DNA of 64,000 nt from Pseudomonas sp. B21_DOA (GTDB lineage: Bacteria; Pseudomonadota; Gammaproteobacteria; Pseudomonadales; Pseudomonadaceae), in contig CP086683.1 of NCBI GenBank assembly GCA_030544685.1, forward strand, positions 2,232,001 to 2,296,000, given 5' to 3'. A program made the position numbers and the translations under genes. Below, piece by piece: positions 38,991-64,000 of this stretch. Position 1 is the stretch's first letter. Each line of letters starts with the position of its first letter. A model generated the notes under the pieces. The model did no database searches. It worked only from the letters and a program-made list of their open reading frames with translations, and was not told the origin of the DNA.

Positions 38991-39724
38991 ATGCAAAAAC
39001 GCAACGTTTCGTCCGTCTTAAGAGCACTGCTCGACCAGCACGGGATCTCCCCACGGAGCTCCACCGTCGCACCGGCGTGCCTCAATCCACGCTCTCGCGG
39101 ATTCTCAGCGGGAAGATTGTCGATCCTTCGGATAAACATATCTCGAAGATCGCCGAGTATTTCAACGTCAGCACCGATCAGTTGCGCGGGCGCGCGGATG
39201 TCACGCCAAGGACCGGCGGCACTCGCGCTGACGTGCATGCGGAACTCAAGGACATAAGCCTGTGGGACGACGACACGCCCGTCGATGACGACGAGGTGTC
39301 GGTGCCCTTTCTACGTGAGGTTGAATTGGCTGCTGGATCAGGAAGATTCGTCATCGAAGAGAGCGAACGCTCCAGCCTGCGCTTCGGCAAGCGCAGCCTG
39401 CGCCACAACGGCGTGCAGTTCGACCAGGCCAAGTGTGTGACCGTACGTGGCAACAGCATGTTACCGGTCCTGCGCGATGGTGCGACTGTCGGCGTCAACG
39501 CCGGCAAGTGCGGTATCGGCGACATCATCGATGGCGACCTGTATGCGATCAATCACAACGGCCAGTTGCGCGTTAAACAACTCTATCGCCTGCCCACCGG
39601 CATCCGTCTGCGCAGCTTCAATCGCGACGAGCATCCGGACGAGGACTACAGCTTCCAGGAAATCCAGGAAGAGCAGATCGTCATCCTCGGTCACGTCTTC
39701 TGGTGGGGCATGTACGCCCGCTAA
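38991..39724 (+). CDS. Self-cleaving repressor of the tailocin locus (HTH plus S24 peptidase; apparent frameshift)
   Basis: CI/LexA-like repressor. The frame starting MQKRNVSSVLRALLDQHGIS continues after a break at C4 39049-39052 (residue 20). One extra C gives ISPTELHRRTGVPQSTLSRI, a helix-turn-helix. The repaired protein has 244 residues. The S24 domain has a putative Ala115-Gly116 cleavage bond (ELAAGSG), Ser156 in GNSMLPVL and Lys196 in RVKQLYRL, the LexA-type dyad. It should be cleaved with RecA on DNA damage. It is functionally comparable to PrtR of pyocin loci, and no PrtN-like activator is seen. ATG 38982 is an alternative start. Confidence 0.88.
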
Positions 39725-39742
39725 CTCTCGTTCATCCAACTG

Positions 39743-39767
39743 AAACCTGCCCCTCGGCAGGTTTTTT
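39743..39767 (+). terminator. Intrinsic terminator of the repressor gene
   Basis: AACCTGCC pairs with GGCAGGTT across a four-base loop and runs into T6, 19 bases after the repressor stop. It keeps repressor transcription out of the tail genes. Confidence 0.88.
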
Positions 39768-39827
39768 CGCCTGCAGAAATCTCCCCACCCCTTGGCCCGC
39801 TTGGGTTTCATGCGCAAGCGCAAATTT

Positions 39828-39847
39828 AATGCATAAATAAATGCATT
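39828..39847 (+). promoter_or_regulatory. Putative upstream operator (paired ATGCAT)
   Basis: AATGCAT-N6-ATGCATT forms an inverted repeat 7 bases upstream of the tail-operon -35. It shares the ATGCAT core with the operator inside the promoter, but with a wider spacing. Confidence 0.5.
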
Positions 39848-39853
39848 TACGCA

Positions 39854-39882
39854 TTGACTGTATATGCATCCATGCATATTCT
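39854..39882 (+). promoter_or_regulatory. Tail operon promoter with operator in its spacer
   Basis: TTGACT (39854-39859), an exact 17-base spacer, and TATTCT (39877-39882). The spacer contains the palindrome TATGCAT-CC-ATGCATA (39863-39878). A repressor bound there would block RNA polymerase directly. The following leader to 40239 holds a GC-rich hairpin (AGCCGCT/AGCGGCT, 39891-39910), a possible 36-codon reading frame (39950-40060) and the first repeat hairpin. Confidence 0.75.
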
Positions 39883-40137
39883 TGCCACCAAGCCGCTCGA
39901 CAAAGCGGCTGGCAAGACAAGCTCTTTAGTTTCACAAGAACAGGCAGCGATGAACCGGCCTCAACGGTTCAGAGGGTTGGCAACTGACCCGGGTGTGCAG
40001 CGTAAAGCACCAGAAGCAGTTATCCGGCGGGCAGGGACCGCGGTCGGAAAAACAATCTGAATGGACTCGTACCGCGCCAGTAGCGCCGAAAAGTCAGCTT
40101 CCTTCTCGAACACAGGATTGAAGGAAGGCGAAGGAGC

Positions 40138-40190
40138 GCATTACTGAAAAGCCCGGTGTACAAGCGCCGGGCTTTTTGGAATGCCTACCG
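40138..40190 (+). terminator. Repeat hairpin A (terminator-like) in the tail operon leader
   Basis: AAAAGCCCGG pairs with CCGGGCTTTT (40147-40176), embedded in the module GCATTACTGAAAAGCC...GGAATGCCTACC. Related copies follow each of the next two genes, at 40693-40742 and 41222-41270. It lies about 250 bases after the promoter, so transcription of the tail genes must read through it. Confidence 0.7.
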
Positions 40191-40239
40191 GGCAGAAACT
40201 GAAACGCCGGGATGCCGGCACTCAATAAGGATGATGAGC

Positions 40240-40656
40240 ATGAAGAAATACGCACGTGTTGTCGCTGGCAAAGTAGACAACATTTTTGAAACCGCGAACC
40301 CGATCACCGATGAGTTTCCGGCGGATCAAGTCTGGGTGGATGTCAGCGCATTGCCCAAGATCGATTATTCCTGGAACGCGGTGAACACCGACGGCGTCTG
40401 GACATTTACTGATAGCGATATGTGGGGGCAACCGTCCATGTTGGCTATTCAAATGCGTAACGAAAGAATGACTCGTTTCGACAAAGTCAACTTCACCCTG
40501 GCATCGTCGGCACTGGTGCAAAAAGTCGAGCTGGGGCTGGCAACACCTGCTGAAGAGGCCGCACTGCTGGCCTACAAGCAGTTCTTCATCGCGATGAGCC
40601 AAGTCAACAAACAGCCGGGCTATCCACTGGGCGTCATTTGGCCTGAAGTGCCATAA
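40240..40656 (+). CDS. Tail fibre assembly (Tfa-like) protein 1
   Basis: It has 138 residues starting MKKYARVVAGKVDNIFETAN. The order of a short N-terminal beta region with WTF (NTDGVWTFTDSD), a helical middle and a C-terminal YKQFFIAMSQVNKQPGYPLGVIWP resembles the Tfa chaperones that fold the tips of phage tail fibres. I assign it from overall layout and from its similarity to the next gene (QPGYP / QSGYP near the end). Its position next to the promoter, far from the fibre gene, is unusual. The start ATG was chosen for the AAGG site 10 bases upstream. Confidence 0.6.
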   Translation: MKKYARVVAGKVDNIFETANPITDEFPADQVWVDVSALPKIDYSWNAVNTDGVWTFTDSDMWGQPSMLAIQMRNERMTRFDKVNFTLASSALVQKVELGLATPAEEAALLAYKQFFIAMSQVNKQPGYPLGVIWPEVP

Positions 40657-40786: not shown

Positions 40787-41191
40787 ATGAGTCTTTATGC
40801 ATTGGTTGAATACAACCGAGTTGTCCAGTTGAAAGAAAGTGAAGTGATTCTTGAACCACCCGCTTCGCCAACCTCGGTTTGGGTTGATGTAACCGGCAGT
40901 ACGGATATTCGGGTGGGTTGGAGCGCAACCTTCAATGGGGTCTGGACCTTCTCTGCACCGACCGAAGAAGAGCTGCGAAACGAAGCCGAACAGCAGAAGT
41001 GGCAATTGCTGAATGGGGCCGCCAACTGGTTACTGATGAACTCGCTGCAGTTCAAAGTCGACGTCGGCGTCGCCACCAGCGACGACCAGGCTCGGCTGTT
41101 GGCCCACAAGCAATACTGCATCGCCCTCAGCGAAATCGATCAGCAGTCTGGTTATCCGGCGAACATCGCGTGGCCAGTCGCACCTTACTGA
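40787..41191 (+). CDS. Tail fibre assembly (Tfa-like) protein 2
   Basis: It has 134 residues starting MSLYALVEYNRVVQLKESEV, with a good GAGGAA ribosome site. It shares with Tfa-like 1 the VWVDV segment, the NGVWTF motif and the ending HKQYCIALSEIDQQSGYPANIAWP, so the two are diverged paralogues. It is probably a chaperone for tail fibre maturation. An alternative is a small structural or accessory protein of unknown role, since no fibre gene is adjacent. Confidence 0.6.
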   Translation: MSLYALVEYNRVVQLKESEVILEPPASPTSVWVDVTGSTDIRVGWSATFNGVWTFSAPTEEELRNEAEQQKWQLLNGAANWLLMNSLQFKVDVGVATSDDQARLLAHKQYCIALSEIDQQSGYPANIAWPVAPY

Positions 41192-41329: not shown

Positions 41330-41668
41330 ATGACAAACGAGCAACAAGCGTTGGCGGACATGCCGATCTGGCTGGTCATCCTCCTCGCCGTCGTCGGCGG
41401 GGTGTCCGGCGAAATGTGGCGTGCCGACAAGGAGGGTGCCCGCGGCTGGTCACTGGTACGGCGGCTGGCCCTGCGCTCCGGTGCCTGCATGATCTGCGGC
41501 GTGTCGGCGATCATGCTGCTGTATGCCGCCGGCATGTCGATCTGGGCCGCTGGTGCGTTTGGCTGCCTGACCGCCATGGCCGGCGCCGACGTCGCCATCG
41601 GCCTTTACGAACGCTGGGCGGCCAAGCGCATCGGCGTCTGCGAAGTACCGCCGCGCGACCAGCCTTAA
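41330..41668 (+). CDS. Tailocin holin
   Basis: It has 112 residues with three hydrophobic segments (about 13-26, 50-67 and 70-90; MPIWLVILLAVVGGVSG, ACMICGVSAIMLLYAAGM, IWAAGAFGCLTAMAGADVAIGL) and a charged tail. This matches the pyocin/phage holin family found first in R-pyocin operons, which permeabilises the inner membrane so that the cell lyses and frees the tails. No endolysin follows it inside the window. Confidence 0.85.
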   Translation: MTNEQQALADMPIWLVILLAVVGGVSGEMWRADKEGARGWSLVRRLALRSGACMICGVSAIMLLYAAGMSIWAAGAFGCLTAMAGADVAIGLYERWAAKRIGVCEVPPRDQP

Positions 41669-41738
41669 CCCTGAATATTTTCCGTGCCGCCATGTTGGCG
41701 GCAGGGCTGCGCGTGGACGAATGAAAAGGAGGTCATGT

Positions 41739-42260
41739 ATGCCCACACCGATCCAGCAGCCGTCGCAACTGTTTACAGCCATCGCGACGACACTGCGCAA
41801 CACCGCCGGTCTCAACCTCAATGTCGGCGGTCCCGATGACTTCACTGCGGCGGGCGATCAGGCCTGGATACTGATCGACTTTGACCGAAACGCGTCCGGC
41901 GTGCGCGCCGCAGATGGGCGTATCGCTCATGTAATGACGTTGTCACTGCAAGTCGTGCCGGCGCTTTCTGCGACCGCATTTACGACATGCGACCTGATCG
42001 CTGTGCTGAAAAACCTGATCACCGACAACCGCTGGGGATTGCCCGGCGATCAATGCGATCTGCCCACGAATATCGATGGATTGCCCTCGTTGCTCATTCG
42101 CGGCGATCAGCCATACAAAGCCTGGACCCTGACCTTCGAGCAGACCCTCTACCTCGGTCCGACCCTGCTCGATGATCCGCTGGGCGTGCCCAAATTTGCC
42201 CGCACCTGGGAGGTCAGCAATATCGACGATCCCGAGCAATACACCGCGCTGGAGGGTTGA
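41739..42260 (+). CDS. Conserved tailocin protein at the tail-completion position
   Basis: It has 173 residues with a strong AAGGAGG ribosome site. I do not recognise the family with certainty. It starts MPTPIQQPSQLFTAIATTL and mixes alpha and beta elements (WILIDFDRN, HVMTLSLQVVP, WTLTFEQTLYLGP). It lies between holin and baseplate V, where P2 has the tail-completion genes R and S and R-pyocins have an uncharacterised gene. A tail terminator or completion role is inferred from position only. Confidence 0.55.
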   Translation: MPTPIQQPSQLFTAIATTLRNTAGLNLNVGGPDDFTAAGDQAWILIDFDRNASGVRAADGRIAHVMTLSLQVVPALSATAFTTCDLIAVLKNLITDNRWGLPGDQCDLPTNIDGLPSLLIRGDQPYKAWTLTFEQTLYLGPTLLDDPLGVPKFARTWEVSNIDDPEQYTALEG

Positions 42261-42263
42261 CCG

Positions 42264-42872
42264 ATGTTCGACGCATTACTGCGTATGCAGCTCGGCCCGA
42301 TCATTGAGCGTCTGGCGGAAATGGAAGCGGAAATCGAAGACCTGCATCGCCGTGCCGAGAGTTTCTGTCGTATTGGTATCTGTCAATCGGTCGATGCGGC
42401 TAGCAACACTTGCCAGGTCAGCCATGGCGGATTGCTCACGCCGGCGATCAAGTTTTTCAACCCCAGCGCCGGTGCGCAAAGCGAATCGCGAATCCCGACG
42501 GTGGGCGAGCAGTGCCTGCTGTTCAACTATGGCAGCGGTGAAAGCGGTGCGCAGAGCGTGGCGTTGTTCGGTTTGAACAGTGACCGTTTCCCAGCGGCCT
42601 CGACCGTACCGACGCTGACCCGTCGGGTGCATGGCGACGGCAGCGAAAGCGGTTACGACGATGCCACTCACACCTTGCACTGGCAAAACGGCCCGGCCGC
42701 GTTCAACGGTTCTCGCGAGTCGCTCCAGTTCAGCATCGGCCCGGCGCGACTGGCCATGACTCCGCAGTTGATCACCCTGCAACTGGGCGCCGTCGGCCTG
42801 AGTATTGACGCCTCGGGCGTGCATTTCAGCGGCCCCTTGGTCGATCACCAGGGCCGCGTCATCAGCCCCTGA
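42264..42872 (+). CDS. Baseplate assembly protein V (spike, P2 gpV-like)
   Basis: It has 202 residues. Helical start (LLRMQLGPIIERLAEMEAEI), an OB-fold-like domain (VGEQCLLFNYGSGESGAQSV) and a C-terminal beta-repeat region (FSIGPARLAMTPQLITLQLGAVGLSID) that would form the trimeric puncturing spike. It begins 3 bases after the previous gene and opens the V-W-J-I baseplate set. Confidence 0.9.
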   Translation: MFDALLRMQLGPIIERLAEMEAEIEDLHRRAESFCRIGICQSVDAASNTCQVSHGGLLTPAIKFFNPSAGAQSESRIPTVGEQCLLFNYGSGESGAQSVALFGLNSDRFPAASTVPTLTRRVHGDGSESGYDDATHTLHWQNGPAAFNGSRESLQFSIGPARLAMTPQLITLQLGAVGLSIDASGVHFSGPLVDHQGRVISP

Positions 42873-42886
42873 TTCAAGAGCCTCCC

Positions 42887-43219
42887 ATGATCGGAATCGA
42901 TAGAGAAAGCGGGGCCACGGTCGACGACTGGCTGCAGTTTGTGCAGCGCGCGACCCGGGCCCTGACCACGCCGCTGGGCACCCGGCAAAAACGCCCTTTG
43001 TATGGATCGCTGATCCCCACGCTGCTCGGGCAGAACCTCGGTGACGACGTTCTGCTTCTGGCGCAGAGCCACGCCGCGCAAGCGTTCTACAACTCGCAAA
43101 ACGGTATCGATGATTTTCAGCCGCAAGTGATTGTTGCCAGTCGCCACGGCGACGGCCTGCTGCTGCGATTTGCCGGCACCTGGAAAAACCGCCAACAAAC
43201 TTTCGAGGTGGCGACATGA
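42887..43219 (+). CDS. Baseplate assembly protein W (gp25-like)
   Basis: It has 110 residues. The segment LTTPLGTRQKRPLYGSLIPTLLG is the lysozyme-like gp25/gpW signature of contractile-tail baseplates, where it forms the inner wedge and nucleates sheath assembly. The stop overlaps the J start by four bases. Confidence 0.92.
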   Translation: MIGIDRESGATVDDWLQFVQRATRALTTPLGTRQKRPLYGSLIPTLLGQNLGDDVLLLAQSHAAQAFYNSQNGIDDFQPQVIVASRHGDGLLLRFAGTWKNRQQTFEVAT

Positions 43220-44211
43220 GCATGCTTATCCCGGGCCAGAATCAGCTGGCCGAACCCGCGCTGATCACAGTCGAAGCGTTTGAAGATCTGCTCGCCGAGT
43301 TCAAGACTTTCGTCATCGAATACGTGGGTGCTCGTTCGCCGACCAGCGCCGAAAAACTCAAGACCAGTCTGGAAAACGAAAGCGAATTGCTCACCCTCGC
43401 GCTGGAAGCGTTCTGCGTGCGCCTGCAAACCCATGAGCGCAAATACAATGCGCGCATCAAGCAGATGCTGGCGTGGTGGGCGACTGGCAGCAATCTGGAT
43501 GCGCGGCTGGCGGACATGGGCTTGGAGCGGCAATTGATCGATCCCGGCGACCCGGCGGCATTTCCGCCGGTGCCGGCGATTTATGAAAGTGATGACGACG
43601 CTCGGCTGCGTTATTACCTGGCACCTCATGCACCGGCGGCTGGTTCGCGGATGCAGTATCGCCGTGAGGTATTCACCCTCGGCGAGCGGCCCACGGTGCA
43701 GGTCGAGTCCACTGATTCCGGCGTGGTAAACGTCACCTACACCTTCGATCCCGACGGCCTCGCCGCGCAGGTCAAGGATGGCAATGGGCGGCGCACTGCG
43801 CCGGGCGAGGTGCAGGTCACCGTGCTTTCGCGAGAAGGCGATGGCACACCTTCCGAAGCATTGCTCGACGGCGTCCGTCAGCATTTCGCCCGACCGGATG
43901 TGCGCCCGGAAACCGACCTTGTCACCGTCAAGGCTGCCGAGATCCAGCGGTACAAAATCCGCGTCATTGCCAAGATCAATTCCGGCCCCGATTCGGGCCT
44001 GACCAAGGTCGCGGCGCAAGCGCAATTGCAGGCTTACGCCGACAGTTGTCATCGCCTCGAAGGTCGGGTCGATCCGAGCTGGATCGACTACACGTTGCAC
44101 AGCGCCGGCGCCGTGCAACTGCAGATTCTCGAACCGCTGACGCCGATCGTCACCACCGCATTTCAGGCGCCGTACTGCACGGCGGTCGAAGTCGAGGTGC
44201 TGACCCTATGA
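43216..44211 (+). CDS. Baseplate assembly protein J (P2-type)
   Basis: It has 331 residues, the usual length for gpJ (T4 gp6 family), which forms the wedge ring. MQYRREVFTLGERPTVQVES and DGTPSEALLDGVRQHFARPDVRPETDLVTV are the family's central and C-terminal segments. It overlaps both W and I by four bases, so V-W-J-I is a tightly coupled block. Confidence 0.92.
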   Translation: MSMLIPGQNQLAEPALITVEAFEDLLAEFKTFVIEYVGARSPTSAEKLKTSLENESELLTLALEAFCVRLQTHERKYNARIKQMLAWWATGSNLDARLADMGLERQLIDPGDPAAFPPVPAIYESDDDARLRYYLAPHAPAAGSRMQYRREVFTLGERPTVQVESTDSGVVNVTYTFDPDGLAAQVKDGNGRRTAPGEVQVTVLSREGDGTPSEALLDGVRQHFARPDVRPETDLVTVKAAEIQRYKIRVIAKINSGPDSGLTKVAAQAQLQAYADSCHRLEGRVDPSWIDYTLHSAGAVQLQILEPLTPIVTTAFQAPYCTAVEVEVLTL

Positions 44212-44843
44212 GTGAACCAACGCAACATCCGACACTGCTGCCGGCCAACAGCTCAGCCCTTGAGCGCGGGCTCGATCTGGGCTTTGGCGCCTTGCTCGAT
44301 CGCATCGCGCCGCCGTTTCCCGAACTGATGAACCCCAGCGCCACCCCGGTGGCTTTCCTGCCTTACCTGGCGGCCGATCGCGGCGTCGCCGAATGGAGCA
44401 GCGATGCGCCGGAAGCGGAAAAACGCCTGACCGTCGAACTGGCCTGGCCCACTGCACGCCAGGCCGGCACTCGAAAAGCGCTGGAAAACGCCGCCAAGGG
44501 GTTGCAACTGCGCCCGGAAATCCGTGCCTGGTACGAACAGACACCGCCCGGCGTGCCGTACAGCTTTTCCGTACGAGCCTTCAGCGACCAACCCTACAGC
44601 GAAGAAATCGATGCACGTCTCGACCGCCGTCTGGCCGATGCCAAAAGCGAGCGGGACATTCTCTCGGTGTCGGTGGGCTTGAGCGCGTTTGGCAATCACG
44701 TCATCGGCGCCGCGACGTTCTGCGGCGAGCTGACTACGGTTTATCCGGTGTTCACCGAAGGCCTTGAAACCTCTGGCGAGGCGTTCATGGCCGCGGCTTT
44801 GTACACCGTCGAAACATCCACTATTTATCCTCAGGGGGCCTGA
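44208..44843 (+). CDS. Tail protein I (P2-type)
   Basis: It has 211 residues starting MSEPTQHPTLLPANSSALER. FLPYLAADRGVAEWSSDAPE and the R-rich GTRKALENAAKGLQLRPEIR are typical of gpI, the wedge component (T4 gp7/gp53 position) that links the fibre to the baseplate. The ATG overlaps the J stop, and the stop abuts the fibre ATG. Confidence 0.9.
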   Translation: MSEPTQHPTLLPANSSALERGLDLGFGALLDRIAPPFPELMNPSATPVAFLPYLAADRGVAEWSSDAPEAEKRLTVELAWPTARQAGTRKALENAAKGLQLRPEIRAWYEQTPPGVPYSFSVRAFSDQPYSEEIDARLDRRLADAKSERDILSVSVGLSAFGNHVIGAATFCGELTTVYPVFTEGLETSGEAFMAAALYTVETSTIYPQGA

Positions 44844-47267
44844 ATGGCTGACTATTACACCCTGCTCACCAACGCAGGGATTGCCTACGAAACGGCGTGC
44901 AAGGCCGCAGGTACGCCGATCAAGCTGACGCAGATTTCCGTCGGCGACGGCAACGGCGCGGTCTACAACCCGGCCGCGACCGCCACCGCGCTGAAACGCG
45001 AAGTCTGGCGCGGGCCGCTCAATGCACTGTTCCAGGACGAGAAAAACCCGAGCTGGCTGCTCGCCGAAGTGACCATCCCGCCGGATGTCGGCGGCTGGTA
45101 TGTGCGTGAAGCCGGCCTGTGGACCGACACCGGTATTCTCTACGCCATCGTCAAATACCCGGAGTCGTTCAAACCGGTGCTGGCGACGTCGGGCTCGGGC
45201 AAGGAGTTCTACATCCGCTCGATTTTCGAGACGAGCAATGCGTCGCTGGTGACGTTGTTGATTGATGACACGGTGGTCAAGGCCACGCGTGCCTGGGTCA
45301 TGAGCTATCTGGCCGAAGAACTCGGCAAGCTCGATGGCAAGCAATCGGTGCGTGTTGCGGCGACTGGCAATGTCGTGTTGAACGGCGCGCAGCAGATTGA
45401 TGGTGTGGCGGTAATCGCCGGCGACCGTGTGTTGCTGCCGAGCCAGACCTTGGCCAAGGACAACGGGCTGTGGATCGTTACCAACGGCGACTGGCAGCGC
45501 GCGACTGATGCCAACAGCAGCGCCAAAGTCACGCCGGGCCTGACGGTGATGGTCGAGGAGGGCTCGGCGAACGGGGATTCGCTGTGGCACCTGACCACCA
45601 ACGCGCCGATTACGCTGGGCACTACGGCCCTGACCTTCAAGATGCTGGCCGGGCGAACCGGGATTGCTGCCGGGACTTACAAGAGTCTGACGGTTGATGA
45701 ATATGGGCGCGCCACGGCCGGGGCCAATCCTGAAACGCTGGCCGGTTTTGGCATAAAGGATTCGTATACCAAGGCCGAAGTTGAAGCGCTGATTGCCAAC
45801 GCCTCGGCGCTGCCGGTGGGGTCGATTGTGGCGTTCCCGGTTGATGCGCCACCGCCGGGGTTTCTGGAGCTGGATAACAGCGTCAAGAGCAGTGCGACTT
45901 ACCCGGACTTGAGCGCCTATTTGGGTGGCAAGTTCAACAAGGGTGATGAGGGGGTTGGCAACTTTCGGCTGCCGGAAGCGCGTGGGGAGTTTTTGCGGGG
46001 TTGGGATCATGGGCGGGGAGTGGATGCTGGCCGCACTCTTGGCAGCACGCAAACCGATAACTTAAAGGCACACAGCCATTACCTTCCGACTGGTTCTGGC
46101 GGTGGGCAAGCGGTTGATCCTAATGGGGAAATACCGTCCGTAGTGTTAAAGGATACCGCCTCTGACTGGGCGCTACGTTCAACGTTCGGAGGCGACAACG
46201 CTGAGCTGTCCATCGGAAGCGTCAGGACTTACAACTACGGCTCCGCGACTGAAACCCGCCCCCGCAACATAGCCGTCATGTGGTGCATCAAGGCCTGGAA
46301 TACCCCGGTCAATCAGGGAAACATCGACGTAGCAGCACTGGTCAAGGAGGTTTCGCGGCTTGGTTCTGCCGTGCCGGTCGGTGCTGTAATGGCCTTTCCT
46401 ACAGGCATCGTCCCACCCGGATTTCTGGAACTGGATGGCAGCGTGCAGAGCACCGCTACTTATCCGGATCTGGCTGCTTACCTCGGTACGAAATTCAACA
46501 AGGGCGATGAGGGCGCAGGCAACTTCCGGTTGCCCGATTCGCGTGGGGAGTTTTTGCGTGGGTGGGATCATGGTCGCGGCGTAGATGCTGATCGAACCGT
46601 CGGTAGTTCCCAGAATCATCAATTTCAATCTCACTTGCATGCTCTCCGGCAAACAATGACCACGGCAGCAGCGTCCGGCTCTGGTCTGGCTCTTGCCATG
46701 AGCGGAGCCGGAACTGGCGCCAATTCGGATGTCCCGATAACCGGCAACGTGGGCAATGAAACGCGCCCGCGTAACTTGGCGGTGATGTGGTGCATCAAGG
46801 CCTGGAACGCGCCGGTCAATCAGGGAAGCATTGACATTGCGGCACTGACACCGCTCGCACAGCAATCGACTGAGTCCAATCAAGGTACTGCGAAACTGGC
46901 CACCCAGGCGCAGACCGATGCAGGCGCAGATGACAAAACCATCGTCACTCCGAAGAAGCTGCGCTGGGGCTTTTCCGTATCCAGGGAACGCACCGGTTAT
47001 CTCATGCTGCCAAGCTGGTTGGGCGGCGTGATCATCCAGTGGGGGACGATCAATGCGATTGAGGCAGGCGGACAAGTAAGCGTCACCTTTCCGATAGCCT
47101 ACCCAGTGGCTCAGGTGATGACACTGGTCGGAAACAGCTCTTCGACGGGCTCTACTTCAATCACCTCCACCCTATGCGTTATGTACGGTGGCCTTACGAA
47201 GTTCACTGTTTCTGCCATCGGCAGCAGCGGTCAACCGAACGGGCCATGGATTTCCGTTGGCTGGTAA
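44844..47267 (+). CDS. Tail fibre with duplicated tail-collar domains
   Basis: Receptor-binding fibre that sets which strains are killed. It has 807 residues. Residues 1-160 are the conserved baseplate-attaching region of P2-type fibres (MADYYTLLTNAGIAYETACK). A beta shaft follows. Two tandem tail-collar domains occupy 323-492 and 510-660, each with GNFRLP, RGEFLRGWDHGRGVDA and VMWCIKAWN. A C-terminal domain (661-807) starting near TPKKLRWGFS and ending PNGPWISVGW probably forms the tip. DNA from about 46060 on uses more A/T-ending codons than the neighbouring genes. Confidence 0.9.
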   Translation: MADYYTLLTNAGIAYETACKAAGTPIKLTQISVGDGNGAVYNPAATATALKREVWRGPLNALFQDEKNPSWLLAEVTIPPDVGGWYVREAGLWTDTGILYAIVKYPESFKPVLATSGSGKEFYIRSIFETSNASLVTLLIDDTVVKATRAWVMSYLAEELGKLDGKQSVRVAATGNVVLNGAQQIDGVAVIAGDRVLLPSQTLAKDNGLWIVTNGDWQRATDANSSAKVTPGLTVMVEEGSANGDSLWHLTTNAPITLGTTALTFKMLAGRTGIAAGTYKSLTVDEYGRATAGANPETLAGFGIKDSYTKAEVEALIANASALPVGSIVAFPVDAPPPGFLELDNSVKSSATYPDLSAYLGGKFNKGDEGVGNFRLPEARGEFLRGWDHGRGVDAGRTLGSTQTDNLKAHSHYLPTGSGGGQAVDPNGEIPSVVLKDTASDWALRSTFGGDNAELSIGSVRTYNYGSATETRPRNIAVMWCIKAWNTPVNQGNIDVAALVKEVSRLGSAVPVGAVMAFPTGIVPPGFLELDGSVQSTATYPDLAAYLGTKFNKGDEGAGNFRLPDSRGEFLRGWDHGRGVDADRTVGSSQNHQFQSHLHALRQTMTTAAASGSGLALAMSGAGTGANSDVPITGNVGNETRPRNLAVMWCIKAWNAPVNQGSIDIAALTPLAQQSTESNQGTAKLATQAQTDAGADDKTIVTPKKLRWGFSVSRERTGYLMLPSWLGGVIIQWGTINAIEAGGQVSVTFPIAYPVAQVMTLVGNSSSTGSTSITSTLCVMYGGLTKFTVSAIGSSGQPNGPWISVGW

Positions 47268-57481: not shown

Positions 57482-57612
57482 TCGCCGTCGCCTATGACCT
57501 GGCCTGGTTCTGGAAGGTTGACCCCGAACAGATGATGGCCAGGCCACTGGATGTGCTCCGCGAATCGCTGGAGCACGCGCAACGGATCAATGCGATGCAG
57601 CAGGTGCAGTGA
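57412..57612 (+). CDS. Frameshift extension of the gp41-like chaperone
   Basis: An open -1 frame that begins at 57412 and ends at the TGA 57610-57612. It has no good start codon of its own before an internal ATG pair. After the slip site it reads GAITDLIAVAYDLAWFWKVD and ends NAMQQVQ, coding-like sequence of about 55 residues. A -1 shift at T TTT TTC would join it to gp41. A missing T in the assembly would look the same; see findings. Confidence 0.72.
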   Translation, partial: PQHAELGRCEFFHECGVGAITDLIAVAYDLAWFWKVDPEQMMARPLDVLRESLEHAQRINAMQQVQ

Positions 57613-59500
57613 TGGCAGACGAAGAGAAGAAAACCCCGAAACCGGTGCTGATCACCGGCATCGATGAACTCTCGCCCAAACTCGGCGCCCTGCGCGTGAA
57701 GGTTGAGAGTTTCAAAAACAATCTCGAGCAGACCGGCCTCGGCAAACTGGACATCAGTGGTCTGTTCAAGGGCGGCAGCGTGATCACACCGTTCGTGGAA
57801 GGGATCAAGTCGGCGGCTGCGTTCCAGGGCAAATTGAGCGAAGTCAGCGATACGGCGAAAACCGTCGAGCTGCCCGCCGCGCCGAAAGTCGCGGCGCAGA
57901 ACATGAATGTGTTCAGCGCTTCGATGGAAAAGGTTTCGGCTTCGGTCGACGCCGCGCTGGTGCCGGCCGTCGGGGCCTTGGTGGTTGGTCTGGAACCGGT
58001 GCTGACTCAGGTCGGCAGCCTGCTCGCTGACAATCCGCAACTGGTCGAAGGCCTGGCGGCGGGGGCGATTGCCTTCTCCGCCATGCAAACCGCGGTCACC
58101 GGTATGACCCAGGTGATGGACGTCATGAGCATGGTGCTCAAGACCAACCCGATCATGTTGATCGCCATGGGCATTGCCGTGGCGGCCGGTTTGATCGTTG
58201 CCAACTGGACACCGATCAGCGCGTTCTTCACCGGGATGTGGGAAGGCGTGAAAAACGCCGGCGCGAGTGCGATGGCGACGTTGCGCTCGATACTCGACTG
58301 GCGACCGCTGGCCGCCCTGGCGGCGTTGTGGCAACCGGTCACGGGATTGTTCTCGGCTATCTGGGGCAAGGTCATGACTGTGACGGCGCCAGTGATCGAC
58401 TTCTTCAAATCGGTTTTCGCGTGGTCGCCTGCCGGCATGATCATCGAAAACTGGGGGCCGCTGACCGGCCTGTTCTCGGCGATCTGGGAATTGCTCAAGG
58501 CCTTGAGTGTGCCGGTGATGGCGTTTCTCAGAAACCTGTTCGATTTCTCGCCGATGCAGATGATTACCGATGCGTGGGGTAGTGTCGTGACGTTCTTCGA
58601 ACCGATGTTCAGCGGTCTGCGAAAAGTCGCGCTACCGGCGAAAGAATTCCTCGTGTCGCTGTTCGATTTCTCGCCGATGCAGATGATTACCGACGCGTGG
58701 GGTGGTGTCGTCACGTTCTTCGAACCGATGTTCACGACGCTGCAATCGGCGGTGCAAAGCACCCGGGACATCGTGCGGACGCTGTTCGATTTTTTCCCGA
58801 TGGAAATGCTGACCAGTGCCTGGGGTGGGATTGTCGGGTTTTTCGAACCGATCTGGATGGCGCTGCAAACATCTGTGCAGCGGGTCAGAGGCTTTTTCTC
58901 CAGCCTGTTCGAGTGGTCGCCGCTGGAGCAGATTGCCCAGTATTGGCAGCCAATCGGTGAGGTCTTTTCGGCGATCTGGGGCGTTGTATTGGCACTGTCC
59001 GCGCCGGTCGTGGATTTTTGCACGGCCTGTTCGAATGGAAGCCTCTGGATCAGATCATCGAGAGTTGGGGACCGATCACCGAGTGGTTCGGCGAGTTGTG
59101 GCAAAAGCTGCAAACCGTCATCGCGCCGATCAAGGAATTGTTCGAGGGTGGCTTCGCCGGACTGATCGCCAAGGTCACCGGCAAGGTTGAAACTCTCACT
59201 GAAGCACAACGCCAGACCAATGCCGAAGGCAAAGGCGAACTGGCGCCGGCGTTCTTCGCTGCCAACCCGGCGCCTGTTGGCAATGGCACACTGCAAAGCG
59301 GTTCGTTGCCGCAAACCTCCAGCGCGCTGATCCAGCAAAGCGCTGCCAACAACCGCACGCAACTTGAAGGCGGCCTGACCGTGCGCTTCGAAAATGCACC
59401 GGCCGGCCTGCGCACCGAACAACCGCAAACCAATCAACCGGGCCTGGCCGTGTCTTCACGCATCGGCTATCGCTCACTGTCGATGGGAGGTTCCCAATGA
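57612..59500 (+). CDS. Tape measure protein of the Mu-type tail with 41-residue repeats (apparent frameshift)
   Basis: It starts MADEEKKTPKPVLITGIDEL. A hydrophobic region (about 120-198) is followed by eight tandem 41-residue repeats at 199-522, each opening with Trp and containing a (F/W)F..(I/M)(W/F) core and a (F/W)(S/K)P turn. The frame breaks at T5 59015-59019 (residue 468, in repeat 7). One more T restores VVDFLHGLFEWKPLDQI and 629 residues. The C-terminal 110 residues are Gln/Asn/Thr-rich. It corresponds in place to Mu gp42. The ATG overlaps the previous stop. Confidence 0.88.
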
Positions 59501-60732
59501 ACTGGCGTGACCGTTTGTTGCCGGCATCCTTTCGCGGTGTCGGTTTCTGGATCGACCAGGCGAAAACCCCGGTCGGTCGCAAAGGGCAGTTGCATGAATA
59601 CCCGCAACGCGACCTGCCGTTTTTCGAGGACCTCGGCCAGCAGGCCAAGACCCACGATCTGACGGCGTTCATCATCGGCCCCGATTGCCTGGAGCAGCGC
59701 GACAAGCTGCTCAAAGCGCTGGAGCAGGGCCGTGGCGAACTGGTGCATCCGTGGCTCGGACGTCTGCAGGTCAAGGTCGGCGAATGCGACATGACCCACA
59801 CGCGCCAGGACGGTGGGCTAGTGACATTCGCGCTGAAGTTCTATCCCGACCAACCCCTGCCGTTTCCGACCGCCACGGTCAGTACGCAGAAAGTGCTGCT
59901 GGCCAAGGCCGACGGTCTGCTGGGTTCGGCGGTGGCGCGTTTCGAACAGGCGATGACGTTGATCAAGGCAGCGCGGATCGGCATCACCAACCTGCGCAAC
60001 AGCCTCACCGGGGTTTACGAGGTGATCAAGGAGCAACTGAAACCTTTGATCGAGCAGTACCGCCAGATCACTGAACTGGTCAAAGCCGTGAAGGAATTGC
60101 CCAAGGAAGTGGCGGCGGAATTCAAGGGTTTGCTCGGTGATATCAAGGAGCTGAAAGCGTTCGCCAAGGAAGGCTACCGTGGCGTGATTGCCGACGTGTC
60201 GCAGCAGCTCGAAGCGATTCGCAAGGCTGATGCGCCGAAGATCACCACGGGCAAGGACACCAATGCCGCAGCGCAGGCCATGGCCGATCTGGTGCAGGAC
60301 ACGATACTGGTCAAAGTCGCGCAGTGGGTCGCGTCGATGCCGGTGGCGAGCACGCCGGTAAAACTGGCGTCGACACCGTCGGTGGCTCAACAGTCGACGT
60401 CGCCGGTCAGCCGTCAGGAAGTCCCTGTCAGCGATGACATGCAAGCCCTGCGCGCTGCGGTGACTGCCGCCATTGATCCAATGCTGGCGAAAGCCGGACC
60501 TGCGCACTTCCAGGCCATCAACGATGTAAAGGAAGCGCTGGTGGCTCATCTCAAAGCGGTGGCGTCCTCCGGCGTGCGGCAAGTCAGCAAATCGTTTCAG
60601 GAGAGCTTTCCGGCAGTGGTCGTGGCCTACAAGCAGTTCGGCGACGCCACGCGAGTCGAAGAGGTGACTCAGCGCAACGCGATCACCCATCCGGGTTTCT
60701 CGCCCAACAATGTAAAAGTCTCGCGGGAGTGA
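59497..60732 (+). CDS. Mu gpN-like tail/DNA circularisation protein
   Basis: It has 411 residues starting MNWRDRLLPASFRGVGFWID. The N-terminal 90 residues (LHEYPQRDLPFFEDLGQQAK, GECDMTHTRQDGGLVTF) are the DNA-circularisation N-terminal domain family. In Mu this is a hub/baseplate protein; the DNA role is historical and irrelevant to a headless tail. The rest is alpha-helical. Confidence 0.9.
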   Translation: MNWRDRLLPASFRGVGFWIDQAKTPVGRKGQLHEYPQRDLPFFEDLGQQAKTHDLTAFIIGPDCLEQRDKLLKALEQGRGELVHPWLGRLQVKVGECDMTHTRQDGGLVTFALKFYPDQPLPFPTATVSTQKVLLAKADGLLGSAVARFEQAMTLIKAARIGITNLRNSLTGVYEVIKEQLKPLIEQYRQITELVKAVKELPKEVAAEFKGLLGDIKELKAFAKEGYRGVIADVSQQLEAIRKADAPKITTGKDTNAAAQAMADLVQDTILVKVAQWVASMPVASTPVKLASTPSVAQQSTSPVSRQEVPVSDDMQALRAAVTAAIDPMLAKAGPAHFQAINDVKEALVAHLKAVASSGVRQVSKSFQESFPAVVVAYKQFGDATRVEEVTQRNAITHPGFSPNNVKVSRE

Positions 60733-60736
60733 CGTC

Positions 60737-61786
60737 ATGAGCGAGATGGACAATCACGTCACGCTGACGGTCAACGACATGGAATACGGCGGCTGGAAAA
60801 GCGTCGAAATCACCGCCGATCTGGAGCGTCAGTTCCGCACTTTCAAGCTCGACATTACCTGGCAGTGGCCCGGTCAGACCGTAGATCAAAGGATCAAACC
60901 CGGCGACCCCTGCGAAGTGAAAATCGGCAAGGACCTGGTGCTCACCGGTTACGTGTTCAAAGCACCGATCCGCTATGACGGGCGGCAGATCAGCCTGACC
61001 ATCGAAGGCAGTTCCAAGACCCAGGATCTGGTCGATTGCGCCGCCCGCAACCTGCCCAGCCAATGGCAGCAACAACCCTTGCTGACTATCGTCCGCGATC
61101 TGGCGAGCGAATATGGGCTGTCAGTGGTCAACGAGATCAGCGAAACCACACGCCTGACCAAACACACCATCGTGCCGGGTGAAACGGCATTCCAGTCGAT
61201 CGACCGATTGCTCTCGCTGCTGCGGGTGTTTTCCACCGACAACGAGCTGGGCCAGTTGGTGTTGGCCAAACCCGGCAGCGGTGGCCGCGCCAGCGATGCG
61301 CTGGAGCTGGGCAAGAACATCCTGTCGGCCAATGCGCCGATGGATTTCAGCCAGGTGTTCTCCGAGTACCGGGTGATCGGCCAGCAGAAAGGCTCGGATG
61401 CAAAAAGCGGCGCGGCGGTCAGCGAAGTCGAGTCGACGGCGGCCGATCTGAGTTTCAAGCGGCGGCGCACCACGGTGATCAATGAAGGCACACAGCTGAC
61501 CTTTGAGTTGGCGCAGCAGCGTGCCCAATGGGAAAGCGCGACCCGCATGGGCCGCGCACAGACCACCACCTATCAGGTGCAGGGCTGGCGGCAGAGCAAT
61601 GGCGATTTGTGGCGCCATAACACGCTGGTGAAGGTCAAGGATCCGGTGCTGGATTTCGATGGCGACATGCTGATTTCCAAGGTCACCTATTCGTTGTCGG
61701 CGCAGGGTTCGGTGACCACGCTGCAAGTGGCCCCGCCGCATACGTTTGATCCTGATCCGACACCCCCGAAGCAATCCCAGGCCTGA
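60737..61786 (+). CDS. Mu gpP-like baseplate hub protein (gp44)
   Basis: It has 349 residues starting MSEMDNHVTLTVNDMEYGGW. FRTFKLDITWQWPG and VPGETAFQSIDRLLSLLRVF are typical of the Mu P / T4 gp27-like hub. It plays the same role in the second tail as D (53334) in the first. It lies 4 bases after N. Confidence 0.9.
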   Translation: MSEMDNHVTLTVNDMEYGGWKSVEITADLERQFRTFKLDITWQWPGQTVDQRIKPGDPCEVKIGKDLVLTGYVFKAPIRYDGRQISLTIEGSSKTQDLVDCAARNLPSQWQQQPLLTIVRDLASEYGLSVVNEISETTRLTKHTIVPGETAFQSIDRLLSLLRVFSTDNELGQLVLAKPGSGGRASDALELGKNILSANAPMDFSQVFSEYRVIGQQKGSDAKSGAAVSEVESTAADLSFKRRRTTVINEGTQLTFELAQQRAQWESATRMGRAQTTTYQVQGWRQSNGDLWRHNTLVKVKDPVLDFDGDMLISKVTYSLSAQGSVTTLQVAPPHTFDPDPTPPKQSQA

Positions 61787-61812
61787 CGCAGGATCCTGCT
61801 GGCGACAATGGC

Positions 61813-61909
61813 CCCTGTGGGAGCGGGCTTGCCCGCGATAGCGGTCGTGACAACAAATACATTTTTTCCCTGACACACCGCCATCGCGGGCAAGCCCGCT
61901 CCCACAGGG
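61813..61909. repeat. REP pair (REPIN) inside the Mu-type module
   Basis: 27-base arms at 61813-61839 and 61883-61909 are reverse complements, of the same GCGGGCTTGCCCGCGAT subtype as the pair at 49698. Located between the P and gp45 genes. Confidence 0.92.
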
Positions 61910-61937
61910 TTTGTGTCGACAAAGTCTAAGGAAACCC

Positions 61938-62447
61938 ATGAGCCTACTGACACGCCTGCTGGCGCGCGGCACTGTCGTGCTCGCCAATTCGGCATCCAAG
62001 CTGCAATCGCTGCAAATGCGCCTCACCGCCGGTGAAGTCAACGACGACCTCGAACACTTCGAGCCCTATGGTTTCACCAGCCATCCGTTGGCTGGCGCCG
62101 AAGGGGTCGTCACCTTCATCGGCGGCGACCGTTCCCATGCCATCGCCCTGGTCATCGCCGACCGTCGCTATCGCCTGCAAGCACTCGCTGCCGGTGAAGT
62201 GGCGATCTACACCGACGAGGGTGACAGGATTCACTTCAAGCGCGGGCGAATCATCGACATCGAAACCGCCACGCTGAACATCCGCGCCAGCAGCGCGGTT
62301 AACTTCGACACGCCGGTGATAAACCAGACCGGCAAGATCGTCTCCAGCGGTGATCAACTGGCCGGCGGCATCAGCCAGATCAAACACGTGCATGTTGGCG
62401 TGCAGGCCGGTAACGGTCAGACCGGCGCGCCGGCAGGAGGCCAGTGA
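61938..62447 (+). CDS. Mu gp45-like baseplate spike protein V
   Basis: It has 169 residues starting MSLLTRLLARGTVVLANSAS. The OB domain is near FGYTSHPLAGAEG-like sequence (FEPYGFTSHPLAGAEGVVTF), followed by beta repeats and a C-terminal HxH motif (IKHVHVGVQAG), as in Mu gp45, where the histidines bind an iron ion at the spike tip. It overlaps gp46 by one base. Confidence 0.93.
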   Translation: MSLLTRLLARGTVVLANSASKLQSLQMRLTAGEVNDDLEHFEPYGFTSHPLAGAEGVVTFIGGDRSHAIALVIADRRYRLQALAAGEVAIYTDEGDRIHFKRGRIIDIETATLNIRASSAVNFDTPVINQTGKIVSSGDQLAGGISQIKHVHVGVQAGNGQTGAPAGGQ

Positions 62448-62845
62448 TGTTCATCAGCCAGAACCTCCACGCCGCGCTGACCCGTGCCGTGCTCATCAGT
62501 CTGTTCACCTGGCGTCGCGCCGCTGATGACGACGCCCTCGATGACGAAGAACGCTTCGGCTGGTGGGGCGACAGTTTTCCCACGGTTGCCGACGATCGCA
62601 TCGGCTCGCGGCTGTGGCTGCTGCGCCGGGTCAAGCTGACCCGGCAGACGCAAATGGACGCCGAATTCTATGCCCGCGAAGCCTTGCAATGGCTGCTCGA
62701 CGACGGCCACTGCAGCGCCATCGACATTATCAGCGAACGCCTCGACGCCCAGCGCCTGAACCTGCGCACGGTCCTGACCCTGGCCGACGGTGAACGTCTG
62801 GACATCAACCCCGATAACAGTTGGCAGGTGATCTATGCCGTTTGA
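62447..62845 (+). CDS. Mu gp46-like baseplate protein
   Basis: It has 132 residues. ERFGWWGDSFPTVADDRIGS and the R-rich LWLLRRVKLTRQTQMDAEFY are the gp46 family signature; functionally it is the gp25-like wedge component. The ATG at 62447 is preferred to the GTG 3 bases earlier. It overlaps gp47 by 11 bases. Confidence 0.9.
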   Translation: MFISQNLHAALTRAVLISLFTWRRAADDDALDDEERFGWWGDSFPTVADDRIGSRLWLLRRVKLTRQTQMDAEFYAREALQWLLDDGHCSAIDIISERLDAQRLNLRTVLTLADGERLDINPDNSWQVIYAV

Positions 62846-63878
62846 AACCCCTTCGCTGCCGGTGCTGATCAAGCGCACCCAAAGCGACCTGGCCGGCGAT
62901 TCGCTGCGCCAGTCCGATGCGCAAGTGCTGGCCCGCACCCTCGGCGGCGCCGCTTATGGCCTGTACGGTTATCTCGACTGGATTGCCCAACAGATCCTGC
63001 CCGACAAGGCCGATGAATCGACACTGGAACGCATCGCCGCGTTGCGCCTGAACCAACCGCGCAAAGCTGCACAAGTGGCTACCGGCAGCGTCGGTTTTAC
63101 TGCAACACCTGGCGCGGTGCTCGACGTTGACACTCTGCTGCAAGCGAACGATGGCCGCACCTACAAAGTCATCGCCGCGCGCACTACGGTCAATGGCAGC
63201 AACACCACCACGATTGCGGCGCTGGAGGCCGGCAGCCTGGGCAATGCCGACGCCGGTCTGACGCTGACCCCGGTGCAACCGATTGCCGGGATTGTCGGCA
63301 ACAGCTTCGTGGTGCTGGCGCCGGGCCTCAGCGGTGGCGTGGCCCGCGAAAGCCTCGAGTCGCTGCGCTCGCGGGTGATTCGTTCCTATCGGGTGATTCC
63401 CCATGGCGGTTCGGCCAGTGACTACGAGACGTGGGCACTGGAAGTACCGGGCGTGACCCGTGCGTGGTGCCGTGGCGGCGATGGCGGCATGGGCATTGTC
63501 AGCCTGTTCATCATGCGCGATGACGATACGCAGCCGATTCCCGGGGCTGAGCAATTAGCCGAGGTTCAGGCCTATATAGAACCATTGCGTCCGGTGACCG
63601 CCGAAGTGCATGTGCTGGCTCCGGAGCAGGTCCCGGTCACCTATAAAATACGCTTGAGTCCTGATACCAGCGCCGTGCGGGCCGCGGTGCAAGCGCAACT
63701 GCATGACTTGCACAACCGCGAGGCCGGTCTGGGCGACACCTTGCTGCAAAGTCATATTCGCGAAGCGATCAGTAGCGCCACCGGCGAGTATGACCACCAA
63801 CTGATCGCGCCCGTTGGCAATGTCGTGCCGACCGAGAACCAGTTGCTGACCTTCGGGGGTTGCATATGGGAGGCATAA
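62835..63878 (+). CDS. Mu gp47-like baseplate protein J
   Basis: It has 347 residues starting MPFETPSLPVLIKRTQSDLA. GAAYGLYGYLDWIAQQILPD, GGVARESLESLRSRVIRSYR and HGGSASDYETWALEVPGVTR are typical of the Mu-type J family (T4 gp6-like), quite different from the P2-type J at 43216. It overlaps gp48 by 13 bases. Confidence 0.94.
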   Translation: MPFETPSLPVLIKRTQSDLAGDSLRQSDAQVLARTLGGAAYGLYGYLDWIAQQILPDKADESTLERIAALRLNQPRKAAQVATGSVGFTATPGAVLDVDTLLQANDGRTYKVIAARTTVNGSNTTTIAALEAGSLGNADAGLTLTPVQPIAGIVGNSFVVLAPGLSGGVARESLESLRSRVIRSYRVIPHGGSASDYETWALEVPGVTRAWCRGGDGGMGIVSLFIMRDDDTQPIPGAEQLAEVQAYIEPLRPVTAEVHVLAPEQVPVTYKIRLSPDTSAVRAAVQAQLHDLHNREAGLGDTLLQSHIREAISSATGEYDHQLIAPVGNVVPTENQLLTFGGCIWEA

Positions 63879-64000
63879 GAACTGCGGTGCAATATCAGGC
63901 CCAGTTACGCAACTTGCTGCCCAGTGGTCCGGCCTGGGATCCGGAACGAGTGCCTGAACTGGACGCAGTGCTCGTGAGTATTTCCCAGGAGCTGTCGCGT
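63866..64000 (+). CDS. Mu gp48-like tail protein (cut by window edge)
   Basis: The first 45 residues, MGGIRTAVQYQAQLRNLLPS then GPAWDPERVPELDAVLVSIS. LLPSGPAW is the start motif of the YmfQ/DUF2313 (Mu gp48) family, the baseplate protein encoded before the fibre. The fibre, chaperone and perhaps endolysin are expected to the right. Confidence 0.88.
   Translation, partial: MGGIRTAVQYQAQLRNLLPSGPAWDPERVPELDAVLVSISQELSR

Follow-up and report, generated by a model that had tools for sequence, protein, structure and literature searches.

In the soil-type Pseudomonas sp. B21_DOA, a locus with two contractile tails is bounded by mutS on the left and by cinA-recA on the right. From mutS to cinA-recA, the order is a CI/LexA-type repressor, a promoter, a holin, a P2-order tail, a Mu/SfV-order tail, and then the genes for an endolysin and an Rz spanin. 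The genes and their order were assigned with PHROGs, Pfam, and NCBIfam, and the features in the window (the whole stretch of DNA analysed, 64,000 nucleotides) are as follows.

36197..38794, minus strand: mutS, left flank (TIGR01070, 1291.6 bits)
38930..39724, plus strand: CI/S24-type (PrtR-like) repressor, as read in the assembly (phrog_4, 1.7e-47)
39854..39882, plus strand: sigma70-like promoter TTGACT-17-TATTCT, with the same form in 41/41 loci
39863-39878: palindrome over the promoter, the likely operator
39921..39928, plus strand: boxA core GCTCTTTA, in 41/41 fetched tailocin leaders
39935..40065, plus strand: structured leader RNA element, ~130 nt (model R1; covariation, fold)
40147..40177, plus strand: terminator-like hairpin with T5, not called by the plus-strand scan
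40156..40656, plus strand: orphan tail-fibre-assembly gene, cargo cassette 1 (PF02413; phrog_105/188)
40787..41191, plus strand: orphan tail-fibre-assembly gene, cargo cassette 2 (phrog_188, 6.5e-19)
41330..41668, plus strand: holin (PF16085, 9.6e-56)
41721..54356, plus strand: tail 1 as a whole, P2 order (PHROGs, Pfam, NCBIfam)
41721..44843, plus strand: tail 1 baseplate block (phrog_1072 protein, V, W, J, I), collinear with phiHAP-1
44844..47709, plus strand: tail 1 fibre and chaperone (profile matches)
47999..49671, plus strand: tail 1 sheath and tube (PDB matches: PA0622 sheath, 1.8e-17; R2 tube/PA0623, 2.1e-4)
49743..52737, plus strand: tail 1 chaperone and tape measure (phrog_794 on both tape-measure pieces)
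52737..54356, plus strand: tail 1 U, X, and D (profile matches; collinearity with phiHAP-1)
54357..54513, plus strand: inter-tail gap of 157 nt with a REP-like hairpin and without a promoter-like site
54514..57481, plus strand: tail 2 terminator, DUF2635 protein, sheath, tube, and chaperone (profile matches)
57609..59500, plus strand: tail 2 tape measure, frame-broken near 59018 (PHROGs)
59497..64000, plus strand: tail 2 baseplate gp43-gp47 and the start of gp48, with fibres, endolysin, and Rz following beyond the edge

Beyond the window edge (locus L009) lie a Mu gp48-like gene, two fibres with chaperones, and a GH19-type endolysin, followed farther right by the Rz spanin, cinA, recA, and recX. 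Sheath, tube, tape measure, and baseplate, the parts by which an R-type tailocin is recognized, are thus present in two full sets, and the lysis genes and regulator comprise a holin, an endolysin, Rz, and a repressor of the S24-type family. No capsid, terminase, packaging, integrase, or replication gene was found among the main ORFs scanned from mutS to recX; the first-pass annotation had named capsid or integrase genes on the right side as evidence against its reading, and neither was found in the stretch on to cinA/recA. Its observation is confirmed: there are two contractile tails that lack heads and differ in ancestry, with one repressor, one promoter, and one lysis set, where the first-pass annotation had named one holin. 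The frame breaks and the conserved leader RNA described below had escaped it.

The two tails and their relatives

The R-pyocin of P. aeruginosa has the gene order V-W-J-I-H-sheath-tube-tape-U-X-D and, as a difference from the B21_DOA locus, a PrtN activator. Tail 1 has this same order, and its sheath and tube match PA0622 and R2 tube/PA0623, respectively. Its nearest phage tails, unlike the R-pyocin, are those of phiHAP-1 and VP882 (sheath identity 57% and 55%), with phiHAP-1 collinear and the nearest phage relative. The R-pyocin also occupies another chromosomal site, described as trpE-trpG (PMC10598620), whereas the B21_DOA locus lies between mutS and cinA-recA. For tail 2, the nearest tails are of the SfV type (53-57% identity): all 12 core genes are matched and collinear in SfV, and 9/12 in Mu. 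Two PHROG labels look like misnomers, namely “head closure” for 49165-49671, an ORF that matches the R-pyocin tube, and “portal” for 54514-55098, which Pfam assigns as a tail terminator.

The first-pass annotation regarded the P2-then-Mu pairing with shared lysis as special. The tandem is instead an ordinary member of a known arrangement, because the same order is carried by 34/298 genomes of the genus and the P. protegens CHA0 pair is published (PMC7815802). It also occurs in 49 of the best 80 named loci, a sample that overlaps the 298-genome set, and further pairs are in print (PMC2647930), so the tandem was ruled out as a novelty. The accompanying statement that tandem tailocins next to mutS are known in the P. 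fluorescens group is borne out by equivalents described in these two papers. Genes of both tails are under purifying selection, with a median dN/dS of 0.06-0.24 for 15 tail genes across 33 relatives.

According to PMC7815802, P. protegens CHA0 makes two R-tailocins from one locus, and after treatment with mitomycin C both labelled sheaths were imaged together in cells. The CHA0 locus resembles that of B21_DOA in its mutS to cinA/recA site, its PrtR-like repressor, its two structurally different contractile tails with their own tape measures, and its one holin with endolysins and a spanin; it differs in that two endolysins are reported there, whereas one was found in the B21_DOA locus. CHA0 tailocin 2 is described as widely conserved, with P. 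koreensis among its carriers, and neither “promoter” nor “Mu-like” occurs in the text of that paper.

In the prophage 01 family (Pf-5, Q8r1-96 [EU982300], and Pf0-1), a comparable prtR-hol ... lys arrangement is described between mutS and cinA-recA (PMC2647930). The same source describes Pf0-1 prophage 01 as having lambda-like (SfV-type) and P2-like tails, and proposes recombination between prtR-hol and lys for the family. The SfV-like tail of P. fluorescens Q8r1-96 prophage 01 has a sheath 92% identical to that of B21_DOA tail 2, but it is the only tail there, and of tail 1 a gpD relic of 34 residues is left at the joint. Deletion from a tandem is nevertheless not a general origin of single-tail loci, since a tail 1 relic is kept in only 1/22 distinct Mu-only loci (23 entries, of which L136 and G033 are the identical locus) and in 18/20 of the P2-only loci fetched (out of 47) gpD leads on to the endolysin; the remaining 2/20 gave no endolysin or cinA match.

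A structured RNA in the leader

In tailocin loci, the leader RNA sits just 3' of the promoter, preceded by the boxA core and followed by a terminator-like hairpin. Twelve of its 26 pairs are compensated, 99.3% of cells are paired, and its covariation score was reached by 0/500 shuffles; the B21_DOA leader folds at z -4.29. The element has four stems, and an AGGC/GCCT pair that is invariant across copies could form a pseudoknot. In the predicted fold, its stems remain separate from the hairpin at 40147. A coding origin of the conservation was rejected because the 36-codon ORF over the element is interrupted by a stop in the aligned genome G260. Rfam 15 gave no family at gathering score (ten matches at E up to 10, all below gathering). 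A literature search, with most subscription journals outside its scope, returned no description, and the RNA appears to be new to the literature.

The boxA core is also found 150 nt upstream of all five 16S genes of the B21_DOA genome; at position 9, the tailocin motif does not follow GYTCTTTAANA, the published consensus. A hairpin with a T run is present in 38/41 tailocin leaders. Tailocin leaders under 620 nt have a single promoter-like site in 9/9 cases, with no second one ahead of the holin.

Copies of the RNA recur near repressors in temperate phages of Pseudomonas, and a plasmid copy precedes a conjugation operon. The repressor gene adjoins the element in PseuP_224 and Orimi01, and lies 1.2-1.3 kb upstream in Medea1 and Aurca01, separated from it by one or two small genes; in the plasmid copy, the element is downstream of LexA-family and Cro genes and upstream of VirB genes. 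It is also present in EU982300 (93%), where a Com-like gene is the sole annotated feature listed at the match.

Copies were divided by rough class into 60 tailocin-like copies and 57 copies in other elements. Among the tailocin-like copies, 29 have a promoter-like site, 41 have boxA, and 53 have a terminator-like hairpin behind (background 9.7%). Among the other-element copies, a promoter-like site lies upstream in 15/57 (background 2.3%), and the exact boxA core occurs within 70 nt in 25/57, with one mismatch in nine more (background 0.35%); boxA is missing (at least two mismatches) in 23/57, among them PseuP_224, Orimi01, and three plasmid stretches. In the tailocins and in part of the other copies, the conserved folded RNA closely follows a promoter and lies in a region under repressor control. 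Only 2/57 of the other-element copies have a terminator-like hairpin within 150 nt, which is no excess over the background of 5.0%, and the promoter-RNA-terminator layout is accordingly a tailocin feature. The pooled figures (promoter 46/115, hairpin 53/114) mix tailocin-like and other loci.

Protein neighbours were compared in a small set, with one of the two nearest upstream ORFs picked in 10 of the 15 loci listed. A CI-type repressor was the upstream protein in 7/10 (four other elements, two tailocin-like loci, and one with a short flank); of the other three, one had no match, one matched only PHROGs of unknown function, and one matched phrog_2384 along with a weak anti-repressor match. Downstream, 5/10 proteins had no PHROG match. 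At viral copies, the first three downstream ORFs were co-directional in only 16/95, and an operon-head layout was not evident there. Since the ORF picker takes shadow ORFs, we regard this count as uninformative, though it lends that layout no help.

A proposed reading of the operon from one start

We put at roughly 0.7 the probability that this locus of the Pseudomonas fluorescens group is a domesticated operon for two R-tailocins, in which the leader RNA acts as an antitermination device and all genes are read from one start. DNA damage would remove the CI/LexA-type repressor, as its S24-type family match and the published relatives suggest, and the single promoter at 39854-39882 would then fire. 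The transcript would start with the boxA core and the ~130-nt folded RNA and then meet the hairpin at 40147-40177, which polymerase would have to pass to reach the tails; this read-through would be needed because no further promoter-like site was found ahead of the holin, as judged in cargo-free relatives, and none between the tails. The folded RNA might render polymerase terminator-resistant, either in concert with Nus factors on boxA or through contact with RNA polymerase itself in the manner of HK022 put. The holin, both tails, the endolysin, and the spanin would thus come from one start, about 29 kb to the spanin end, and the cell would lyse and free both particles.

We infer that the element is a nut/put-like antitermination leader. 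HK022 put is described as about 70 nt with two stem-loops, a folded leader RNA after a repressed promoter (PMC9378689), and, in a further likeness, no protein gene dedicated to the element lies next to it in cargo-free tailocin leaders. The B21_DOA element, likened to put by description, differs in its length, its four stems, its possible pseudoknot, and its frequent position after boxA. With the lambda nut and rrn boxA system (PMC5725501) it shares the core GCTCTTTA, the same as in the five rrn leaders of B21_DOA; the departure from the boxA consensus and a folded element that is not a boxB hairpin set it apart. In the B21_DOA locus, no gene for an N-like protein was noticed.

If the leader RNA works in this way, it would explain how a very long two-weapon operon is run from one promoter, and it would offer a single switch to test in tailocins. 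The broader proposal, to which we give even odds, is that tailocins, temperate phages, and conjugative plasmids of Pseudomonas share an undescribed four-stem, possibly pseudoknotted RNA antiterminator behind a repressor-controlled promoter, often after boxA, with the stops near in tailocins and farther away in phages; a chromosomal weapon would thus retain a phage read-through device. If true, this would be a new RNA antiterminator family across Pseudomonas mobile elements, comparable to lambda nut and HK022 put.

The element could instead be a stand-alone gene of mobile elements for a trans-acting small RNA, with the tails expressed by leak-through or from promoters missed by the scan. Its high sequence conservation and the promoter-like sites and hairpins flanking it in tailocin-like loci (29 and 53 of 60) would suit such a gene, which we nevertheless think unlikely: the 9/9 short tailocin leaders offer no other promoter-like site before the holin, boxA precedes the element in 41/41 tailocin leaders, and the other-element copies show no excess of the hairpin that a short transcript needs unless it is ended by Rho. 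Somewhat less likely again is a conditional, riboswitch-like attenuator, with signal-dependent control of the 40147 hairpin and no lasting terminator resistance. The hairpin behind the element in 38/41 tailocin leaders is what such a device would call for, but the predicted fold keeps the element stems and the hairpin separate, and other-element copies lack the hairpin (2/57 have one).

Frame breaks and the joint between the tails

A point against this reading is that the repressor and the tape measures of both tails are frame-broken as assembled in B21_DOA; fibre 2b is broken too. The repressor breaks near 39050 relative to intact copies (ORFs of 16 relatives), the tail 1 tape measure is read as two ORFs (50540-52147 and 52144-52737), and the tail 2 tape measure breaks near 59018 (ORFs of 14 relatives); in 33/33 relatives, the tape measures of both tails are single ORFs. 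These breaks could mean real loss, with the locus a remnant of a prophage in decay and its tails dead, which we consider improbable. Assembly indels are the likeliest cause because ordinary chromosomal genes are broken as well (9/42 ORFs of a third genome, versus 1/32 in the sister genome). Reciprocal rates were alike (ORFs of G097 against G000, 7/31; ORFs of G000 against G097, 7/34), and therefore only the third-genome test is decisive. A genome completeness of 95.3%, though the genome is a single contig, and the purifying selection on tail genes across 33 relatives also argue against decay.

The first-pass annotation had named a strong promoter and terminator between the two modules as further evidence against its reading. 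Neither a promoter-like site nor a consensus terminator was found in the gap at 54357-54513, and no promoter-like site was found in 34/34 inter-tail gaps. Single-tail loci are common (47 P2-type sheaths with no Mu-type neighbour, and 49 Mu-type with no P2-type neighbour), but with these gaps and with both tails sitting between shared rep-hol and lys-Rz blocks (among the listed loci showing both ends), it is very improbable that the tails are independent, adjacent by chance, and each under its own control. The REP-like hairpin of the gap is absent from many relatives. The earlier statement that the counterparts have little similarity stands for the core genes, where the best blastp match between tails is no better than E=0.011, but not for one fibre pair (48% over 153 aa, E 6.5e-41) and one fibre-chaperone pair (35%, E 5e-22), which are similar between the two tails.

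Gene content and ancestry of the two tails

Protein-family matches confirmed the blocks proposed in the first-pass annotation: the order in the window (G000:C1:2232001-2296000, from a 5.94-Mb genome in a single contig) is mutS, an S24/CI-type repressor, a holin, a tail in P2/R-pyocin order (tail 1), and a tail in Mu order (tail 2). We extended the reading of the chromosome rightward, through recX and further, and the tail 2 baseplate is followed by fibres, an endolysin, an Rz spanin, cinA, recA, and recX. Both tails had been described as headless and free of integration and replication genes, and the protein-family scan, right extension included, found no capsid, packaging, integration, or replication genes among the main ORFs.

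The phage tails nearest to tail 1 are those of phiHAP-1 and VP882, and its sheath matches the R-pyocin sheath PA0622. Those nearest to tail 2 belong to SfV-type phages, and its hub matches PDB 1wru, an entry named baseplate hub protein gp44, which we take to be the phage Mu protein. The claim of little similarity between counterparts stands for the core genes, which show no clear likeness (best E=0.011), but not for one fibre pair and one chaperone pair, which are clearly alike. Two tail 2 fibres (6478-9422 of L009, the chromosome right of the window) have a common N-terminal anchor (50% over 113 aa), and rows of further such fibre genes are seemingly present in several relatives; these are possibly alternative fibres serving one tail 2 baseplate.

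Frequency and age of the tandem

In 34 of 298 genus genomes, the window's own among them, one contig carries both sheaths, that of tail 1 being 5.1-6.9 kb upstream of that of tail 2; this count takes in only close relatives of each sheath. Among the best 80 of 210 named loci found, a sample overlapping the 298 genomes, tail 1 precedes tail 2 in 49 and the opposite order occurs in none; the holin is directly before tail 2 in 19 and farther upstream in 2, and 10 have neither tail 1 nor holin in the stretch examined. The P2-then-Mu pairing, earlier singled out as special, is common, and equivalent pairs are already in print. Pf0-1 is described as carrying both tail kinds (PMC2647930), and P. protegens CHA0 has, at this same chromosomal site, a pair of R-tailocins that share one lysis set, both sheaths having been labelled and imaged after mitomycin C (PMC7815802). 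Clusters between mutS and cinA are reported to encode 1-4 particles each (PMC8319346).

The 33 other tandem loci all carry sheath, tube, and baseplate genes for each tail, as well as the repressor, the holin, Rz, cinA, and recA; the endolysin is found in 29 and mutS in 30, some stretches stopping short of mutS. Similarity among the core genes of either tail follows how closely the hosts are related, with Spearman rho of 0.43-0.63 against unlinked gyrA (435 pairs from 30 of the 33 genomes, those with the gyrA locus fetched); recA itself gives 0.56 and tube 1 gives 0.22. Because of this tracking and of the low dN/dS of 15 tail genes (medians 0.06-0.24), the tail pair appears to be long established in the group and maintained there by selection.

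The published single-tail locus of P. fluorescens Q8r1-96 (L182, EU982300) retains 34 residues of tail 1 gpD, 85% identical, between hol and its SfV-like tail. This relic is likely the scar of a lost first tail, and is absent from the 21 other distinct loci with only the Mu-type tail. In two genomes (G035 and G061; stretches L074-L077), about 14 kb, mostly without matches, occupy the tail 1 slot between holin and tail 2.

A structured leader RNA behind a single promoter-like site

Leader and gap features (window positions)
39854-39882, sigma70-like promoter
39935-40065, leader RNA
40130-41270, cargo cassettes: ORFs, for fibre assembly or other, set between GCCCGG/CCGGGC hairpin repeats
49688-49790, about 54380-54480, and 61813-61918, REP-like repeats in gaps of the tail operon

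One promoter had been proposed for both tails, and the relatives likewise point to one transcription unit: in 41/41 loci (34 tandem and 7 single-tail) the repressor is followed by a promoter that has a TTGACT box and a palindrome in its spacer, and the inter-tail gaps (57-968 nt) contain a promoter-like site in 0/34. Of the 34 tandem loci, 31 have a single exact copy of the palindrome and 3 have none. In leaders shorter than 620 nt, the sole promoter-like site is upstream of the leader RNA (9/9). The window's inter-tail gap contains a REP-like hairpin, which is not required because such sequence is flagged in some gaps but not in others. At the place of the cargo cassettes, relatives have none to three ORFs of at least 80 aa.

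The promoter-holin interval contains a very highly conserved stretch across the 41 loci, and the structural evidence for its leader RNA is strong. Alignment A1 uses 28 of 39 listed references, all distinct copies, drawn from tailocins, phages, plasmids, and other sites in genomes. It shows 26 pairs arranged in four stems, with compensation at 12 of the pairs. When an invariant, putative pseudoknot is included, 99.3% of cells are paired versus 22-49% for slid structures, and the covariation score was reached by 0/500 shuffles. No Rfam family matches at gathering score, and the literature searched yielded no description.

The core is present in 117/199 genus genomes, in 2/194 genomes of an order sample (both Pseudomonas), in 11 phage records, 9 of them named Pseudomonas phages, and in 27 Pseudomonas plasmid records; in a family sample, model matches occur in 30/248 genomes and 5/19 genera, two of them weakly. 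Scanning IMG/VR for a pattern derived from the element gave at least 120 stretches. Among the matches listed, model R1 of the RNA matched all 100 loci given to it, 99 at full length; 46 of these are tailocin-like, 31 are in other elements, and 23 have too short a flank to be assigned.

A repressor gene adjoins the element in PseuP_224 and Orimi01, whereas Medea1 and Aurca01 have small genes between the element and a CI gene 1.2-1.3 kb upstream; a co-directional gene run lies behind the element, and in Orimi01 and Medea1 this includes an ERF recombination gene. Seven of the 10 neighbouring genes chosen in viral loci are CI-type repressors, 4 of the 7 being in other elements. In the P. syringae plasmid LT963394 LexA-family and Cro genes precede the element and VirB genes follow it; LT963398 also has LexA and Cro upstream, with sparse annotation behind, and CP078141 has an IS element downstream.

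In the fetched tailocin leaders, a boxA core, the same as that 150 nt upstream of all five 16S genes in this genome, lies 20-30 nt upstream of the element (41/41), and a hairpin with a T run lies downstream (38/41). When copies are split by the rough class of the surrounding locus, a promoter-like site is found within 110 nt upstream in 29/60 tailocin-like copies and in 15/57 other-element copies (background for the latter 2.3%). The boxA core is exact in 41 and has one mismatch in 2 of the tailocin-like copies; within 70 nt of the other-element copies it is exact in 25 and has one mismatch in 9 (background 0.35% exact). A terminator-like hairpin lies within 150 nt behind 53 tailocin-like copies (background 9.7%) but only 2 other-element copies (background 5.0%).

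A long operon preceded by a promoter, boxA, a folded RNA, and, in tailocins, a terminator is arranged as in phage antitermination, of which lambda nut and HK022 put (PMC9378689 for put) are examples. The best explanation, we infer, is that the folded leader RNA would make polymerase ignore the leader hairpin and then the later stops too. Against antitermination, boxA is missing from 23/57 other-element copies, and nearly all of the 57 have no nearby hairpin behind them; the latter also speaks against the main rival, that the RNA is a short stand-alone small RNA.

Tape measures and frame breaks

Both tape measures are in two pieces here, 535 + 197 aa for tail 1 and 518 + 160 aa for tail 2, and are single ORFs in 33/33 relatives (474-833 and 498-703 aa, respectively). 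The repressor, compared with 16 relatives, and fibre 2b, compared with one, are also frame-broken.

Frame breaks from comparison with relatives
39050, 52110, and 59018, window positions
67396 and 72408, extended coordinates

Ordinary genes nearby are also frame-broken in this assembly, and in a control with ORFs of another genome (G212) the frame changed in 9/42 against this genome and in 1/32 against a third (G097). Assembly indels are the best explanation.

Across the tape measure regions (window 50540-52737 and 57609-59500, plus relatives), median pairwise identity is 42% for tail 1 and 57% for tail 2, with sheaths at 96% and 94%. This variability, far above that of neighbouring genes, together with the tape measures hardly tracking gyrA (rho 0.11 and 0.17), suggests that length alleles are exchanged; tape-measure variation is already in print for carotovoricin (PMC13195805). 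Tape measure 1 is longer than tape measure 2 in 31/33.
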